This document shows, one piece after another, positions 29,052 to 35,964 of a DNA stretch of 54,162 nt. The notes beneath the pieces are model-generated. The model saw only the letters and a program-made list of their open reading frames with translations, did not search any database and was not told the DNA's origin. A program made the position numbers and the translations under genes. The first letter of the stretch is position 1; each line of letters starts with the position of its first letter. Source of the stretch: Methanospirillum lacunae. Its GTDB lineage: Archaea > Halobacteriota > Methanomicrobia > Methanomicrobiales > Methanospirillaceae. The stretch is from assembly GCF_003173355.1 (NCBI RefSeq), contig NZ_QGMY01000019.1, forward strand, positions 1 to 54,162, read 5' to 3'.

Positions 29052-29402
29052 GTAAATGCTCGTGACGTTTGATAACAGGATGAATCAGGAGTTGATGACT
29101 GGTGTTGTGTCTTATTATTGAAATGGGTATTGTATATCCACTCGTGAATGTCGTCAGATGCTGGAAACCAGGGAGATACTGACACGTTAGTTTTGAGTTA
29201 ATGCAGAATAACTTTTTTAGATGTTCAACTTTTTGCAATTTGAATCGCTATGTATCATATGCCAATGTCCAAGATATTGCCCCTCGTCTTATGTTCACTA
29301 TCCAAATTATTCAATTTCATATAGAAAATTACAATTTTGATAATCGTATTCTAAATTGCATATGAATATTATTTTTGTATTATTAGAAAGATATTGATTA
29401 CT
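29052..29402. promoter_or_regulatory. Divergent promoter region of the MFS and FmdE/ABC operons
   Basis: The 350-bp AT-rich region has two similar sites near the FmdE side: CAATTTCATATAGAA (29312-29326) and AAATTGCATATGAAT (29353-29367). The second is a near-palindrome, ATT-N-CATATG-N-AT. They are 41 bp apart (about four helical turns) and may bind a metal-responsive regulator. Several TATA-like stretches are present, for example near 29364-29372. Confidence 0.35.
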
Positions 29403-29843
29403 ATGAAGTGGCATGACCATTGTCAATATATGGAAATTCCCCGCGATTATTCAATACATGATCTGGCCCGGTTTCACGGACATCTTGGGCCCTTTATTGT
29501 GTTAGGATACCGGATGGGAAGATATGCCCTGAATGCATTAAATGCAGACCCATTTGAGCTCAAGGCACAAGTCTTCTGTAATGGAATTACTCCCCAGTCC
29601 TGTATGGCAGATGGAATTCAACTCGGAAGTGGTTGTACACTTGGGAAAGGAAATATCGAGATAATCAAGTCCGAAAGTTTGTTTGGTACGTTTTGTAAAG
29701 ATGAGAAGAAGATAAAAATCACGCCGCATCCTTTGAAAACCTTGGATCAGAATGATCCTGACTATGAACTGGCCATTGAACGATATGCCCAATCCCTCTA
29801 TGACCTGAAGGATGAGGAATTATTCAAGGTTGATGGCCTGTGA
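29403..29843 (+). CDS. Short FmdE-family protein linked to a metal ABC transporter
   Basis: The 146-residue protein has the FmdE N-domain core: FHGHLGPFIVLGYRMG (His25, His27), the Cys59-N-G-I strand, and CMADGIQLGSGCTLGKGN with Cys67 and Cys78. FmdE proteins bind metal, often zinc, and the name comes from association with formylmethanofuran dehydrogenase. The C-terminal zinc-ribbon of longer members is missing. I start at ATG 29403; TTG 29394 adds three residues. It overlaps the downstream ABC ATPase gene by four bases (GTGA) and heads a four-gene unit, so it may sense, store or hand over the transported metal. It is unlikely to be a catalytic Fmd subunit. Confidence 0.8.
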   Translation: MKWHDHCQYMEIPRDYSIHDLARFHGHLGPFIVLGYRMGRYALNALNADPFELKAQVFCNGITPQSCMADGIQLGSGCTLGKGNIEIIKSESLFGTFCKDEKKIKITPHPLKTLDQNDPDYELAIERYAQSLYDLKDEELFKVDGL

Positions 29844-30586
29844 GTTGTGGCAAACCTGACTGCCTTATTCACCTGGAAAACGTCTGGACAACCTATGAAG
29901 GAGCAGAATGCCCGGTCATCAGGGATATCTCATTTGATATCAGGGCCGGGGAATTCGTGGTAATCGGAGGTCCAAACGGGGCAGGCAAGACAACTCTTCT
30001 TGAAGCTATCACCGGGCTTCTCCCTATTGTCCGGGGATCTGTTACTGTCTGCGGAATGGGAGTTTTAAACGAAGCAACCAGGGCTCGATGCAGTATCGGG
30101 TATGTTATTCAGAACTTTGATTTTCATCCGTTTACTCCGTATACTGTGGAGGAAGTTGTCAGAATGGGAAGGTATGGGAAAATCGGATGGTTCAGGAGAG
30201 AGACTGAAGAAGATGTTGAGGCAGCCAGGGATGCAATGCGAACCCTGCGAATTGACCACTTGAAAGATGAACTCATCGGAAAACTTTCTGGAGGTCAACA
30301 ACAGAAAGTCCTCATCGCCCACAATCTGGCAAAAAAGCCATCTGTGCTTCTCCTCGATGAACCATACAGTAACCTGGATATCAGGACCCGGGATGAGGTT
30401 TCAGACATTCTCTGCCGGATCTGCGATTCTGGTGTACCGGTCATGATGGTCTCTCATGCATTTGACAGCCTTCCTGATCGTGACATCAGGGTGATTGTTA
30501 TGCAGACCGGAAGATTAGTTCTGAATACTGTTTCAAAACCGGATAACGTGGCCAACCTGATTCGTTCGGTTCCGGTGGCCGGGTGA
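29840..30586 (+). CDS. ZnuC-type metal ABC ATPase
   Basis: The 248-residue ATPase has Walker A GGPNGAGKT, signature LSGGQQQKVLIAHNL, Walker B VLLLDEP, D-loop SNLD and switch MMVSHAFDS. The architecture matches the manganese/zinc/iron ABC family. The N-terminus has an extra CGKPDC pair (residues 3-8) before the first strand that could bind metal. The start is GTG 29840, overlapping the FmdE-like gene. It is followed directly by the permease gene. The metal is unknown. Confidence 0.85.
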   Translation: MSCGKPDCLIHLENVWTTYEGAECPVIRDISFDIRAGEFVVIGGPNGAGKTTLLEAITGLLPIVRGSVTVCGMGVLNEATRARCSIGYVIQNFDFHPFTPYTVEEVVRMGRYGKIGWFRRETEEDVEAARDAMRTLRIDHLKDELIGKLSGGQQQKVLIAHNLAKKPSVLLLDEPYSNLDIRTRDEVSDILCRICDSGVPVMMVSHAFDSLPDRDIRVIVMQTGRLVLNTVSKPDNVANLIRSVPVAG

Positions 30587-31416
30587 TGCTTGAGTTTCTA
30601 TTCCCGAATAATGTGCTCTGTCATGCAATTGAGGCGATGTTCTTTGCCTCAGTCGGCTGTGCTATCCTGAGCGTTCTGATAACCCAGATGAACATCTCCT
30701 CGATTGGGTTTACAATGTCTCATGCTGCATTTGCCGGAGGAGCAGCAGGAGTTTTCTTTGGGCTTCCCATGATGCTTTCGGCCATTGTGATGAGTATTCT
30801 AACAGCAACAGTCATGGGACCTCTCAGTTACCGGACCCGAATGCATACTGACACTACCCTTGGTGTTCTGTTTGGGACAATGATGGCCCTTGCTATATTC
30901 TTTATCTCGATGATGCAATCATCCGGGCGGGGATTTGATGCCAGTGCCCTGCTGTACGGCAACGTTATCTCCCTGTATAGAGAGGAGATTTACGGGCTGT
31001 GCGTTATCACACTGGGAATCGTTCTAATAATTTCTATCTTCAACAAAGAGATTGCTGCTATTACATTTCACCGGAAGATGGCTGAAATCAGCGGGATACA
31101 TGTGCAACCAGTGTATTATCTCTGTCTATTTCTGATTGCCATCATGGTTGCACTCTGTCTTCCCATCGTTGGTGGTCTGCTTCTTTATGTCTGGCTTGTG
31201 ACTCCTGCAGCGATTGCATACCAGTATTGTGGAACAATAAGGCAGATGTTTCTGGCAGCTCCCATTGTTGCTGCCATCATCAGTGTTATTGGTGCATACA
31301 CCGGGGTTATGTACTCACTCCCGGTTGGACCGCTGACTGCTGTATTTTTTTCAATCATCTTTGTGGCTGCAGTGGCACTTTCACCAAAAAGAAAAGTAAA
31401 TAGTCAAACATATTAA
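30586..31416 (+). CDS. ZnuB-type metal ABC permease
   Basis: The 276-residue protein has eight to nine membrane helices with the ABC-3 family pattern. It reads IGFTMSHAAFAGGAAGVFFG near residue 45, TDTTLGVLFG, and LCLPIVGGLLLYVWLVTPAA near residue 185. It forms the channel for the ATPase encoded upstream. I start at ATG 30586, whose first base overlaps the previous stop (TGATG); the GTG three bases earlier is possible. The binding-protein gene follows after 24 bp. No specificity residue can be read with confidence. Confidence 0.85.
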   Translation: MLEFLFPNNVLCHAIEAMFFASVGCAILSVLITQMNISSIGFTMSHAAFAGGAAGVFFGLPMMLSAIVMSILTATVMGPLSYRTRMHTDTTLGVLFGTMMALAIFFISMMQSSGRGFDASALLYGNVISLYREEIYGLCVITLGIVLIISIFNKEIAAITFHRKMAEISGIHVQPVYYLCLFLIAIMVALCLPIVGGLLLYVWLVTPAAIAYQYCGTIRQMFLAAPIVAAIISVIGAYTGVMYSLPVGPLTAVFFSIIFVAAVALSPKRKVNSQTY

Positions 31417-31440
31417 CACACAATACAAAACAGTAATACT

Positions 31441-32322
31441 ATGAAGCAGTTCATTTTAGTATGTACTGTTCTTGCACTTCTTTTTGGAGTGCCGGCAGTG
31501 TCTGCTCTTGATGTGGTGGCAACGACAAGTGTTCTCTGGGATCCAGTCAGTCAAATAGGAGGTAATGATGTACATGTCGTGTACATCGCAGATCCTACTG
31601 TATGCCCTCACCTGCAGGGAGATATTTTACCAAATTTGATCCAGAAACATGCAGATGATCTCAAATCACCAGATCTTTTCCTTGCACATAACAGTTCGAT
31701 GGACACGGCAACCATGGCAGCTATTGAAAAGTTCAGGGATTCGAACGGGTATGGAAAGACGAAGTGGACTCTTCTCAAACCTGATACCGAGTGGAATACC
31801 CCTGAATCGGCAGATGCTCTTGCCGACACCGTACTTGGCTGGCTCAAGGAAGCAGATCCAAAAAATGTAACGACCTATTCAGAAAACGCAGTTAAGTATA
31901 AGGAATCCATTTCAGCAGCAGGAAATCTGACTCCGGAAGAGAAGGATGTTCTTTCAAAGAAGAATGCCATTGTGATGGCATGGCAGAAGACTCCGGTGGA
32001 AAAGTGGCTCGGAGTAAAGGTCTATGATATCTTTGCACCCGAGTTTGCATATGGTGGAAACAAGACTCCGGCAAAAGTAGTTGATTCAATCCAGAAAAAC
32101 AAGGACAAAATCTACGCCCTCGATCTCGTCTCCGGTGGCGGAAAGATGTATGTTATTGAGAACATGCAGTCTGGAGAGATGGCAAAAGGGATTGAAGAAG
32201 CACTTACAGATATCGCAGTAAATGCTGATCGGGTTACTTTCACTAACTTCCCCAAGTCAGTTGACGGGGTAAATTCCATTCCTGATGTTCTTACGTATAA
32301 CAAGAACCTCCTCCTGGCGTAA
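31441..32322 (+). CDS. ZnuA-like (cluster 9) binding protein with altered metal site
   Basis: The 293-residue secreted protein has a signal peptide (cleaved near VSA-L, about residue 22) and a cluster A-I fold: VVATTSVLWDPVSQIGG at the start, and a long backbone helix after residue 150. In zinc/manganese members the first ligand sits in a D-P-H motif. Here the matching segment is ADPTVCPHLQGD, so Cys55 and His57 replace the usual His position. A later His-rich loop is absent. The site suggests a different ion or complex. There is no lipobox, so it is either free or held by its partner permease. It is the last gene of the FmdE-ABC unit. Confidence 0.8.
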   Translation: MKQFILVCTVLALLFGVPAVSALDVVATTSVLWDPVSQIGGNDVHVVYIADPTVCPHLQGDILPNLIQKHADDLKSPDLFLAHNSSMDTATMAAIEKFRDSNGYGKTKWTLLKPDTEWNTPESADALADTVLGWLKEADPKNVTTYSENAVKYKESISAAGNLTPEEKDVLSKKNAIVMAWQKTPVEKWLGVKVYDIFAPEFAYGGNKTPAKVVDSIQKNKDKIYALDLVSGGGKMYVIENMQSGEMAKGIEEALTDIAVNADRVTFTNFPKSVDGVNSIPDVLTYNKNLLLA

Positions 32323-32502: not shown

Positions 32503-33048
32503 TTATTTTGTCGTTCGATCCCGGTTACGAAGTTCCTTTGGCGTGCAGTTCCATTCTGCAATATCATCCATATGCTTGGAATCGACCCATCCTGATTTCA
32601 CCTCTTCCCGGTAATCAAACTGCTTGACATAAGGTTTGATATCAATGACCGGAGTCCCATCCAGAACATCAACCCCACCCACTTTGAGTATATTTCCATC
32701 AACCCCAAGCAGCTCCATGATTGAAAGGCCTATAGGATTAGGTCGATTAAAATGCCGGATTGCAAAGATTCCCCGTTCTTTCTCTCCGTCAAGGAATGGT
32801 TTTTGTATGAGGTTTTTGGCGGTTGCCCTGTCAAAATAATATAGCACGTAGATATGAGAGAATGATTCAATGTCTTTCAGACCATCGGCATTTTCTTCAA
32901 ACACCTCAACATAACCGACAGACGGATTAAAAATTCCCTGAATCGGGGTATTATCATGTTCAGTGTGTTCAGAATGGATAACTCCGATTGGATGAAAGGT
33001 GATATCTGCATTTCTCCATTTGTTTGCGTGTTCTCGTGATAAATTCAT
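32503..33048 (-). CDS. TrmO/TsaA-family SAM-binding methyltransferase
   Basis: The 181-residue beta-barrel protein shows the family pattern: PIGVIHSEHTE near the N-terminus, GVDVLDGTPVIDIKPYV near residue 125, and FAIRHFNRPNPIGLS (about residues 94-108), which binds S-adenosylmethionine. E. coli TrmO N6-methylates t6A37 in tRNA; archaeal members vary and are often shorter. A strong AAGGAG site precedes the ATG. The gene lies 63 bp after modC on the same strand, so it may be the last gene of the molybdate/tungstate operon. A link to the metal is unproven. Confidence 0.8.
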   Translation of the reverse strand: MNLSREHANKWRNADITFHPIGVIHSEHTEHDNTPIQGIFNPSVGYVEVFEENADGLKDIESFSHIYVLYYFDRATAKNLIQKPFLDGEKERGIFAIRHFNRPNPIGLSIMELLGVDGNILKVGGVDVLDGTPVIDIKPYVKQFDYREEVKSGWVDSKHMDDIAEWNCTPKELRNRDRTTK

Positions 33049-33111
33049 AATTTTGTCTCCTTATTGTGTCTGGAAAAAGATTCTAAATAGTTTGTGTGAT
33101 TTTTGTATCCA

Positions 33112-34200
33112 TCAGATCATTCCTGTCATTATCTCTTCGCTGGTTTGTTCCCCGGTTGGAATGACATGAAGTGCTGACTCTTTAAAGGTAACAAATACCT
33201 CATCTCCGGGCATAAGTGAGAGTTCCTCAGAACTTGTCCTGGTTACTATGGCGATCATCCGAATCCCGGTATCGAGTACAACCCGGATAAACGGACCGGA
33301 AGGAATCAGTTCAGTTACGGTTGCCTGAAGGGTATGCCTGGCACTGGACTTGAAAGGTTGAATTGAGATGATAATATCTTCAGACCTGAGGACAGCAACT
33401 ACCGGACCTCTGTGCTGCGCTGAAATTCTGATCTGAAGATCACCAAGGTTCAGGATTGAACCTGTCCCGTCCGGTATTGCTTCACCCCGGAAAATATTCT
33501 CGGTTCCACAGATCTGGGCAACATACGGAGTGCAGGGATGAGCAAAGACATCCTCCGGTTTTCCTGTCTGCACGATTGTACCATCCTGCATGATGGCTAC
33601 CTTTTCAGCGAGAGCATACACATCCTCGAAATGGTGTGTGATGTGGATGATTGGGATTTTCAGGTGCTCATGTATCTTTCTGATCTCCTGCCTTAACCGT
33701 TCCCGTGTCATGGAGTCAAGAGCTGAAAGGGGTTCATCAAGGAGAAGCAGTCGGGGTTTTTGGATAAGGGCACGGGCAAGGGCTATTCGCTGAGCCTCTC
33801 CTCCTGAAAGGGTATCTGGGTTTCGATCCATAAGATGACCGATACCAAGGATACTTATCAGATCTGAAATTTTCGCCTCAGTGTCTACATTATACGCCCT
33901 TCGAATCTTTACGCTGAAAAGAATGTTCTCTTTTACAGTCAGATGGGGAAAGAGCATCAGATCCTGGTACATCATGGCAATGTTCCGATCTTTGGGTTGA
34001 TCGTGTGTGATGTCATTTCCCTCAAAGAGTATTCTTCCACTGGCAGGTTTGTGAATTCCTGCAATCATCTCAAGAAGGATTGTTTTACCTGCTCCTGACG
34101 GGCCGATTATCACCCAATATTCCGGATTCTCAATATGCAGAAAGAGAGATTTGAGCTGGAAATCCCCGAGGGTAAGTGATACATTTTCAATGCGGAGCAT
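33112..34200 (-). CDS. modC: Molybdate/tungstate ABC ATPase (ModC/WtpC-like)
   Basis: The 362-residue protein has an ATPase domain (about 1-235) with Walker A GPSGAGKT, signature LSGGEAQRIALARAL, Walker B LLLLDEP and switch HITHHFEDV. A C-terminal regulatory TOBE-like region follows (about 280-350) and contains LQATVTELIPSGPFIRVVLD. Oxyanion importers of this type may be shut down when the anion binds the C-terminal domain. Its ATG overlaps the modB stop by one base (TAATG). Molybdenum and tungsten serve formylmethanofuran and formate dehydrogenases. Sequence alone does not separate the two metals. Confidence 0.88.
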   Translation of the reverse strand: MLRIENVSLTLGDFQLKSLFLHIENPEYWVIIGPSGAGKTILLEMIAGIHKPASGRILFEGNDITHDQPKDRNIAMMYQDLMLFPHLTVKENILFSVKIRRAYNVDTEAKISDLISILGIGHLMDRNPDTLSGGEAQRIALARALIQKPRLLLLDEPLSALDSMTRERLRQEIRKIHEHLKIPIIHITHHFEDVYALAEKVAIMQDGTIVQTGKPEDVFAHPCTPYVAQICGTENIFRGEAIPDGTGSILNLGDLQIRISAQHRGPVVAVLRSEDIIISIQPFKSSARHTLQATVTELIPSGPFIRVVLDTGIRMIAIVTRTSSEELSLMPGDEVFVTFKESALHVIPTGEQTSEEIMTGMI

Positions 34201-34985
34201 TATATCCGGTCACTCCCTTCTGATAATCGTTCAAAGAAGAACATTGTTACTGCAGCTATTCCAAGGAGAATGCATGCCGTGGTGATGGCGATATCCAGAT
34301 CTCCGGTAGCCATATTCAGGTACAGGGCAATTGGAAGTGTTTCAGAGTGCATCCGTGTTGCACCGGCAAGCATTAGAACAGCACCAAATTCTCCCATCGC
34401 TTTTGACCAGGTTATTACAAGTCCTGAAATCAGACCTGCCCGGGCCAATGGAAGAGTTACATGCCAGAAGGCCTGAAAATCAGAACATCCGAGCGTTCTT
34501 GCAATATGCTCATACCTGGGTGATATCATGGCAAATGACGATCTCATGACCCGAATCAGGTACGGGAGATTGACAAACCATTGTGCCACGATGATACCGA
34601 GCTGGGTATACACAACTGTAATCCCGAGGTCTTCAAGCCCTGTACCTATTGGAGTTCTGGCAAAAAAGAGAAGAAGTGCAACTCCGGCAACCAGTGGAGG
34701 GAGGGAGAGAGGAAGCATGAGTAGCATTATGAGGGGACGCTGACCGGAAAATCCTCCTCTGCTTAAGACATATCCGGATGGAATTGCAACAAGTGCACAC
34801 AGTACAGTAGATACGACCGAAGTAATGAGAGAGAGCTGAATTGCATATCTGATCTCGGGTGATGTGAATGTCTGAATGATGCTATCCGCATTGATGAAAG
34901 TGAAGAGCCCACCAAGTACAAGAAGAGTAACTCCCCCTGAAAAAAAGGCGAGAATTGTTGTGACTGGGTAAAATATTTTATTCAT
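34200..34985 (-). CDS. modB: Molybdate/tungstate ABC permease (ModB/WtpB-like)
   Basis: The 261-residue permease has six membrane helices and the coupling motif HIARTLGCSDFQAFWHVTLPLA, split over about residues 160-182. The segment SKAMGEFGAVLMLAG after it is a hallmark of ModB/WtpB. I use ATG 34985 with AGGA about nine bases upstream; a GTG at 35021 would add 12 charged residues. It sits between modA and modC on one strand, and 118 bp separate it from modA. Confidence 0.88.
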   Translation of the reverse strand: MNKIFYPVTTILAFFSGGVTLLVLGGLFTFINADSIIQTFTSPEIRYAIQLSLITSVVSTVLCALVAIPSGYVLSRGGFSGQRPLIMLLMLPLSLPPLVAGVALLLFFARTPIGTGLEDLGITVVYTQLGIIVAQWFVNLPYLIRVMRSSFAMISPRYEHIARTLGCSDFQAFWHVTLPLARAGLISGLVITWSKAMGEFGAVLMLAGATRMHSETLPIALYLNMATGDLDIAITTACILLGIAAVTMFFFERLSEGSDRI

Positions 34986-35103
34986 CCGGATTTCCTGTCG
35001 TTCCTGGTGCCTATTTCTCACTTATTCAATCCAGGGATGATAAAAGAGAAGTGAAAAAGGAATTTGTATCATCAATCCGAAAAATTGGTTATCCCTTTCG
35101 ATC

Positions 35104-35964
35104 TCAGGGCTGAACGTCTTTATATTGCTCGTCTCCGTATGCCGGGAATTTATACTTCTTGAAAGAATCTTTCCCTGCGTCTGATGCTACATAATCTACA
35201 AATTTCTGAGCTTTTTCAGGCTGTTTGGAGAATGTTGTGGCCCCTTCTGCTACAACGAGGACATAATCATTGACATTTTCAACTGGAATAGTGTCCATAG
35301 TCTTGTCGCTTATCTGATCCAGTGTAAGAAGTGATACATCAATAGATCCTGCATTCATAGCAGAGACGAGTTCGTTGATGGTTGAGGTTCTCACGACAAC
35401 ATTCTTTTCCACAGCGTCAGCAATTCCAAGGTCCTTGAAAAGTTTATCTCCAGTAGTTCCGATCGCTGTTGCTTTTATATCTCCAAGCCCAATCTTGAGA
35501 CCTGGCTTTGCAAAGTCTTCAACTGAGGTGATGTTCTTAGGATTTCCTTTCTGCACTGCGACGATTGGCACATGGTATGCAATATACTGTGGTTCGCCTA
35601 CGAGTCCTTTATCTTCTGCTGTTTTATACGCATCAGATCCACCTGCAATTAAAACATCTCCTTTATGGGTGATATCCATCTGACTCAAAAGAGCTCCTGA
35701 TCCCTGGAAATTGTATACTACCGTGATTCCGGTCTCATTAGTAAATGTTGATCCGATCTCCTGAACCGGTTTTTTGAGACCTGCTCCCGCATAGATGAGA
35801 AGTGCTTCAGGATTCTTTGCCATCAGGTCATCAATTGAAACATTTCCACTCTGATTTGCTGATGAAGTTGCATTATCTGCTGCTAATGTCCCCGGTATGA
35901 GCAATCCTGTGATAAGGAGGCTCATACATAATAGTAAAATTGATCTCATTACCTTATCTCTCAT
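35104..35964 (-). CDS. modA: Molybdate/tungstate-binding protein (ModA-like)
   Basis: The 286-residue secreted protein has a signal peptide and a Ser/Asn-rich spacer. The oxyanion-binding fold begins ALLIYAGAGLKKPVQEIG, then FQGSGALLSQM and GDVLIAGGSDAYKTA, as in archaeal ModA proteins. The Ser/Thr residues after AGAGL and FQGSG are typical anion contacts. ATG 35949 (MRSILLL) is an alternative start five codons later; both have a GGTAAT before them. It is the first gene of the mod operon. A TATA-like CATATATTG lies near 36079-36087 on the same strand. Confidence 0.88.
   Translation of the reverse strand: MRDKVMRSILLLCMSLLITGLLIPGTLAADNATSSANQSGNVSIDDLMAKNPEALLIYAGAGLKKPVQEIGSTFTNETGITVVYNFQGSGALLSQMDITHKGDVLIAGGSDAYKTAEDKGLVGEPQYIAYHVPIVAVQKGNPKNITSVEDFAKPGLKIGLGDIKATAIGTTGDKLFKDLGIADAVEKNVVVRTSTINELVSAMNAGSIDVSLLTLDQISDKTMDTIPVENVNDYVLVVAEGATTFSKQPEKAQKFVDYVASDAGKDSFKKYKFPAYGDEQYKDVQP

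Follow-up and report, generated by a model that had tools for sequence, protein, structure and literature searches.

An ABC transporter of methanogenic archaea with an altered binding-protein site and a linked FmdE gene: a probable transition-metal importer

Introduction

What does an FmdE-like protein do at the head of an operon for a ZnuABC-like ABC transporter, and what might such a transporter carry? The question is raised by a locus of Methanospirillum lacunae, located on a stretch of 54,162 nucleotides (contig NZ_QGMY01000019.1, positions 1 to 54,162; hereafter the window). FmdE proteins are common in methanogens and crystal structures have been available since 2006–2008, but the family has no established function. 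Most PF02663 genes adjoin genes for metal-ion transporters, and a role in metal transport has been suggested (Axelrod et al. 2010, PMC2954224). Nickel, cobalt, iron, zinc, molybdenum and tungsten are required for methanogenesis and are scarce in sulfide-rich settings; import and hand-over of metals in methanogens therefore bear on methane output. We propose, with a probability of about 60%, that the four genes of the locus form an operon for a transition-metal ABC importer with a rewired binding site and with FmdE as its metal-handling partner.

Results and Discussion

Organization of the operon

All four genes lie on the forward strand. The first (29403..29843; start codon ATG 29403, with an in-frame TTG also at 29394) encodes an FmdE-like protein of 146 aa that consists of the core domain only (PF02663, 78.2 bits against a cut-off of 22.9). 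It is followed by the genes for a ZnuC-type ABC ATPase (29840..30586; 248 aa; PF00005) with the Walker A motif GPNGAGKTT and the signature LSGGQ, for a metal permease of the ABC-3 family (30586..31416, starting at ATG 30586 or at GTG 30583; PF00950, 159.4 bits against 20.1) and for a secreted binding protein of the TroA/ZnuA fold (31441..32322; 293 aa; PF01297, 55.6 bits against 29). The fmdE and ATPase genes overlap by 4 bases, and those for the ATPase and the permease by 1 base. The presumed operon promoter is an AT-rich stretch upstream of fmdE (29220..29402, forward strand). Genes for MFS and ABC transporters flank the four-gene set in the window, and no fmd/fwd catalytic genes were found beside fmdE there. 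Known transporters of cluster A-I are encoded in the order binding protein–ATPase–permease, whereas here the order is FmdE–ATPase–permease–binding protein, FmdE being a constant neighbour.

The surroundings of the operon vary. In the window, ModA-ModB-WtpC-like genes followed by TrmO (UPF0066) converge on it from the minus strand (32503-35964), occupying the place that in other Methanospirillum (L038, L039, L041, L042) is taken by a canonical ZnuABC operon with a DtxR-like regulator, likewise convergent on the FmdE operon. In many Methanomicrobiales a gene for a class I SAM methyltransferase lies upstream, divergent from fmdE (a cluster in 22 loci; L043-L093). One Methanotrichaceae locus (L080:245-8211) is an array running in one direction through TrmO, NikB, NikC, a Nik ATPase, a Cys-type FmdE, an HGHLG FmdE, the ATPase, the permease and the binding protein. 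Comparison of the regions upstream of fmdE did not reveal a shared operator; a palindrome is present in one subgroup only, being GAAATAA-N6-TTATTTC in the spacer upstream of fmdE in the Methanoculleus and Methanolinea types, with compensating changes in L059 (GAATTAA/TTAATTC).

The binding protein and its altered site

Within the order, the binding protein was found in 49 of the 150 genomes searched (leaving out one weak match, which is a canonical ZnuA), and genes for the ATPase and permease always adjoin it in the loci examined from this search. A scan of 85,000 named genomes yielded 61 loci, belonging to Methanomicrobiales, Methanotrichaceae and one Methanocella. The AlphaFold2 model of the window protein (pLDDT 92) had YfeA, PsaA and MntC as its best structural matches, with Z about 20 (YfeA, 20.4 over 243 residues at 3.1 Å; PsaA, 20.1–20.2). 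In the fold of its binding protein, permease family, ATPase type and first histidine, the system resembles ZnuABC, MntABC and PsaABC of cluster A-I.

The ligand set is different. The classical site is made of His, His, His/Glu and Asp/Glu. In an alignment with canonical archaeal ZnuA, only the first of these is kept, as His57, and it is preceded by Cys55 and a proline. An earlier note on this DNA, made from the sequence alone, had described a replacement of the usual D-P-H motif by ADPTVCPH; the motif is indeed present at residues 50-57 (31588..31611), but the change was understated, since His2, His3 and Asp4 are gone as well. The canonical second His (DPHxW), third His (HPAFGY) and acidic ligand correspond to positions in PDTEWNTP, WQKTP and TNFP, respectively, and both sequence alignment and fold match would place W118/N119, W181/Q182, E240 and N269 in the site. 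With three of the four classical ligands missing, what is carried may be something other than a bare cation, or even no metal.

Relatives with CPH at this position, which the earlier note had proposed to look for, proved to be numerous. Cys55 is invariant in all 56 aligned orthologues (Methanomicrobiales, Methanotrichaceae and Methanocella) and His57 nearly so, one locus (L070) reading CPN; CPH is therefore a feature of the family. Asp51, Pro52, Gln59, Trp118, Trp181, Gln182, Glu240-Gly245, Arg264 and Phe267-Pro271 are also invariant in this alignment. Among bacterial plasmid relatives of the CPDH-type binding protein, only ordinary zinc/manganese-type proteins, about 23% identical, were found.

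The architecture of the binding protein differs between lineages. In Methanofollis-type genomes (L026:1498-3138, L063, L028, L029) two CPH copies are fused in tandem in one frame. Most Methanomicrobiales proteins (L044-L096) carry a C-terminal linker rich in Ser, Thr and Pro and a membrane anchor, both absent from those of Methanospirillum and Methanotrichaceae. In Methanotrichaceae a DUF169 gene (PF02596, COG2043) lies between those for the permease and the binding protein (L072, L073, L074, L061, L077, L079, L089).

Permease and ATPase

The triad Asp47-His51-Asp94 is essential in Bacillus MntC (PMC8487065). Two of these three residues are kept in the window permease, which has Phe43, His47 and Asp90 at the equivalent positions (numbering from GTG 30583), the first lying in the motif GFTMSH. 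Alignment revealed that the first Asp of the triad is also absent from several canonical archaeal ZnuB proteins. NCBIfam models for named zinc and manganese systems (ZnuB, AztABC, MntC-type) gave best matches far under their curated cut-offs.

Retention of the cation-binding His and Asp bears on one candidate cargo, molybdate or tungstate, suggested by the fmd name and by the neighbouring ModA, ModB, WtpC and TrmO genes directly downstream on the other strand; elsewhere in the genome FmdE adjoins formate dehydrogenase-like genes. A separate Mod/Wtp transporter is already present, however, and this neighbour is not among the gene families common to orthologous loci, so that, together with the permease residues, an oxyanion cargo appears very improbable.

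The earlier note also pointed to an extra CGKPDC in the ATPase. The motif is there, at residues 3-8, but the N-terminus of the protein is variable and even CGK recurs in just one close relative; we therefore regard CGKPDC as a local oddity and reject it as a component of the system.

The FmdE-like protein

The model of the FmdE-like protein (pLDDT 83) matched the fold of solved members of PF02663 (2gvi, Z 12.3; 2glz, Z 11.9), with which, as with 3d00, it shares the FHGH motif and the motif containing Asp70 and Gln73. His25, His27, Cys59, Cys67 and Cys78 were all found as the earlier note had listed them, and the overlap of this gene with that of a ZnuC-type ATPase was confirmed. Cys7, which the note had not mentioned, is invariant in the subfamily, as is Cys78 among other residues. 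The protein has neither a zinc finger nor a signal peptide and should therefore be cytosolic.

In FmdE crystals the metal is held by a His-His-Cys-Cys site, and the solved proteins bind Zn/Ni, 2glz containing a mixture of the two (PMC2954224). Compared with the site of 2glz and 2gvi, three of the four ligands are kept in the window protein, namely His25, His27 and Cys67, the last being equivalent to Cys55 of 2glz. The remaining Cys19 is replaced by Gly29: the solved proteins have HGHxC where the window protein has HGHLG, and one known metal ligand is therefore lost. Other differences from the solved proteins are the invariant extra cysteines Cys7, Cys59 and Cys78 and the missing zinc finger. 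A possible substitute for the missing second cysteine is Cys59, located where the neighbouring strand ends. The His-His-Cys-Cys site does not define the family, since 3d00, also a member of PF02663, is without two of these ligands.

Linkage of FmdE to the transporter

Profiles built from the orthologues were used to scan 62 loci whose upstream sequence extended for 3.2 kb or more. Genes for the ATPase and permease were present in 59 of them, and in each of these 59 an FmdE gene was found within 4.5 kb (57 distinct contigs, two pairs of loci sharing a contig); it is of the HGHLG type and on the same strand in 54. The three remaining loci hold orphan binding proteins with none of the three partners nearby. 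No FmdE gene was found near canonical ZnuA in 19 loci of the same phylum (roughly 5 kb on each side). Fisher's test on 59/59 versus 0/19 gave 1e-15, a value that assumes more independence than these related genomes have. The recurrent fmdE linkage for which the earlier note had suggested a search is thus borne out against ordinary ZnuA loci, as is its broader claim that the four genes encode a transport system whose site is non-canonical, FmdE being a recurrent and specific partner.

Two variants strengthen the case for linkage. The binding protein of genus g24 shows 35% identity, is without Cys and has YDNP in place of WNTP, yet the genes still stand in the order binding protein–FmdE–ATPase–permease. 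In genus g64 a binding protein with CPDH and WNTP is encoded alone, the FmdE–ATPase–permease operon lying elsewhere in the same genomes; in total, five genomes hold these three genes together with a CPDH-type binding protein at another place. Cysteines of the two proteins were not found to co-vary: FmdE of g24 keeps Cys7 and Cys59 while its binding protein has lost Cys, and some Methanotrichaceae show the reverse.

The linkage could in principle be neutral, an unrelated fmdE gene having hitch-hiked along. FmdE paralogues are numerous (seven matches in the genome of the window, with several transporter partners), and a few strong HGHLG-type FmdE genes are found without the transporter (G006, G015). 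Against this stand the 59/59 versus 0/19 distribution and the survival of the linkage when the binding protein diverges or relocates; hitch-hiking is strongly disfavoured and we give it hardly any weight.

FmdE genes near metal transporters and FmdE–TrmO fusions (PMC2954224; PMC11237513) were already known. The strict one-to-one operon, the loss of classical ligands across the family and the coexistence with canonical ZnuA appear to be new; a literature search, whose scope was outside subscription journals, found no description of the transporter subtype or its site. Strict pairing with one importer with a rewired site, in several methanogen families, makes FmdE function testable with two purifiable proteins.

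Possible cargo

Canonical ZnuA was counted by hand in the 150 genomes of the order. It is present in 39 of the 49 host genomes, the other 10 having only the FmdE-linked type; zinc is thus usually served otherwise and the system is not simply the zinc importer of its hosts. ZnuA is also present in 68 of the 101 genomes without the system, so that there is no anti-correlation, and substitution of one for the other was rejected. As to substitution for CbiM-type Ni/Co importers, the distribution of these is uninformative, since they are nearly universal (143 of 150 genomes). Together, the altered ligands and the coexistence with ZnuA would point to a metal other than zinc or manganese, as the earlier note had supposed, but the genome of the window has no second ZnuA.

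Zinc nevertheless deserves attention. A zinc (or manganese/iron) importer might have had its site rewired to thiolate and His in order to win zinc in sulfidic methanogen habitats, where free zinc is the scarcest ion (PMC3087415), with FmdE as zinc chaperone. Its fold and permease family are those of zinc importers, Zn was present in FmdE crystals (PMC2954224), the genome of the window contains no other PF01297 protein, and the 10 hosts mentioned above have this type alone. Yet His2, His3 and Asp4 are gone from the binding protein, most hosts have canonical ZnuA, and a canonical zinc-type operon adjoins the M. stamsii locus. On balance, we find zinc unlikely.

Nickel or cobalt, or a complex of either, which FmdE would deliver to the nickel or cobalt enzymes of methanogenesis, would be a special case of the transition-metal importer proposed here. 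Several Methanotrichaceae loci have Nik/Opp-type ABC genes next to the operon, continuous with it in L080; the window has an Opp/Nik-type system farther upstream, and the metal in 2glz was a Zn/Ni mixture. The Nik neighbourhood is, however, mainly confined to Methanotrichaceae, Opp/Nik permeases can carry peptides as well, and CbiM-type importers are already present in nearly all genomes of the order, so that the assignment can only be tentative. We would rank nickel/cobalt or a complex first among candidate cargoes, followed by zinc, then iron or another metal, and finally molybdate or tungstate.

Proposed mechanism

We infer an ABC importer built on the cluster A-I plan and carrying a transition metal, either free or complexed. 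The secreted binding protein would capture the cargo outside the cell through Cys55/His57 and the conserved WNTP, WQ, ENMQSG and TNFP segments, which would replace the classical set His-His-His/Glu-Asp. The permease, with the His and one Asp of its intramembrane site kept, would pass the cargo inward upon ATP hydrolysis. At the inner face the metal would be received by cytosolic FmdE, for which we expect a dimeric form and a His-His-Cys site; alternatively, FmdE may gate the pump according to its own metal load. A role of FmdE as sensor, store or chaperone, as put forward in the earlier note, is plausible.

A precedent for control of an importer by such a protein may be seen in Helicobacter pylori, where the cytosolic metallochaperone SlyD activates a metal ABC transporter, NiuBDE, by contact with NiuD (PMC7840056). 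The likeness is one of function only, in that an ABC importer for metal is served by a metal-binding protein in the cytosol: the proteins are unrelated, and contact between FmdE and the transporter is putative.

A stronger version of our proposal would make these transporters a distinct archaeal class for a complexed or soft metal, with a site lined by Cys, His, Trp and Asn. FmdE would then be an obligate subunit in the cytosol, and import would proceed only if it accepted the metal or docked on the transporter. We hold this to be rather improbable; if true, it would give the FmdE family its first defined job.

Other FmdE genes

FmdE is also paired with transporters of other classes, FecBCD-like and ABC-2, and may therefore have a more general role. 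In the genome of the window (contig C9, L099:6772-7863) FecB-, FecCD- and FecE-like genes and a further FmdE gene follow the gene for a secreted protein that contains two FmdE-like stretches. At a further locus (L100) TrmO adjoins FmdE, and on contig C8 (L101:3486-7601) an FmdE gene whose product has FHTYPAPG and no HGH motif is convergent on formate dehydrogenase A/B-like genes. Of the two strong HGHLG-type FmdE genes without the transporter (L196 in G015 and L195 in G006), one lies downstream of FecBCD-type genes and one alone; L195 also has a TrmO-like gene between ModA- and ModB-like genes.
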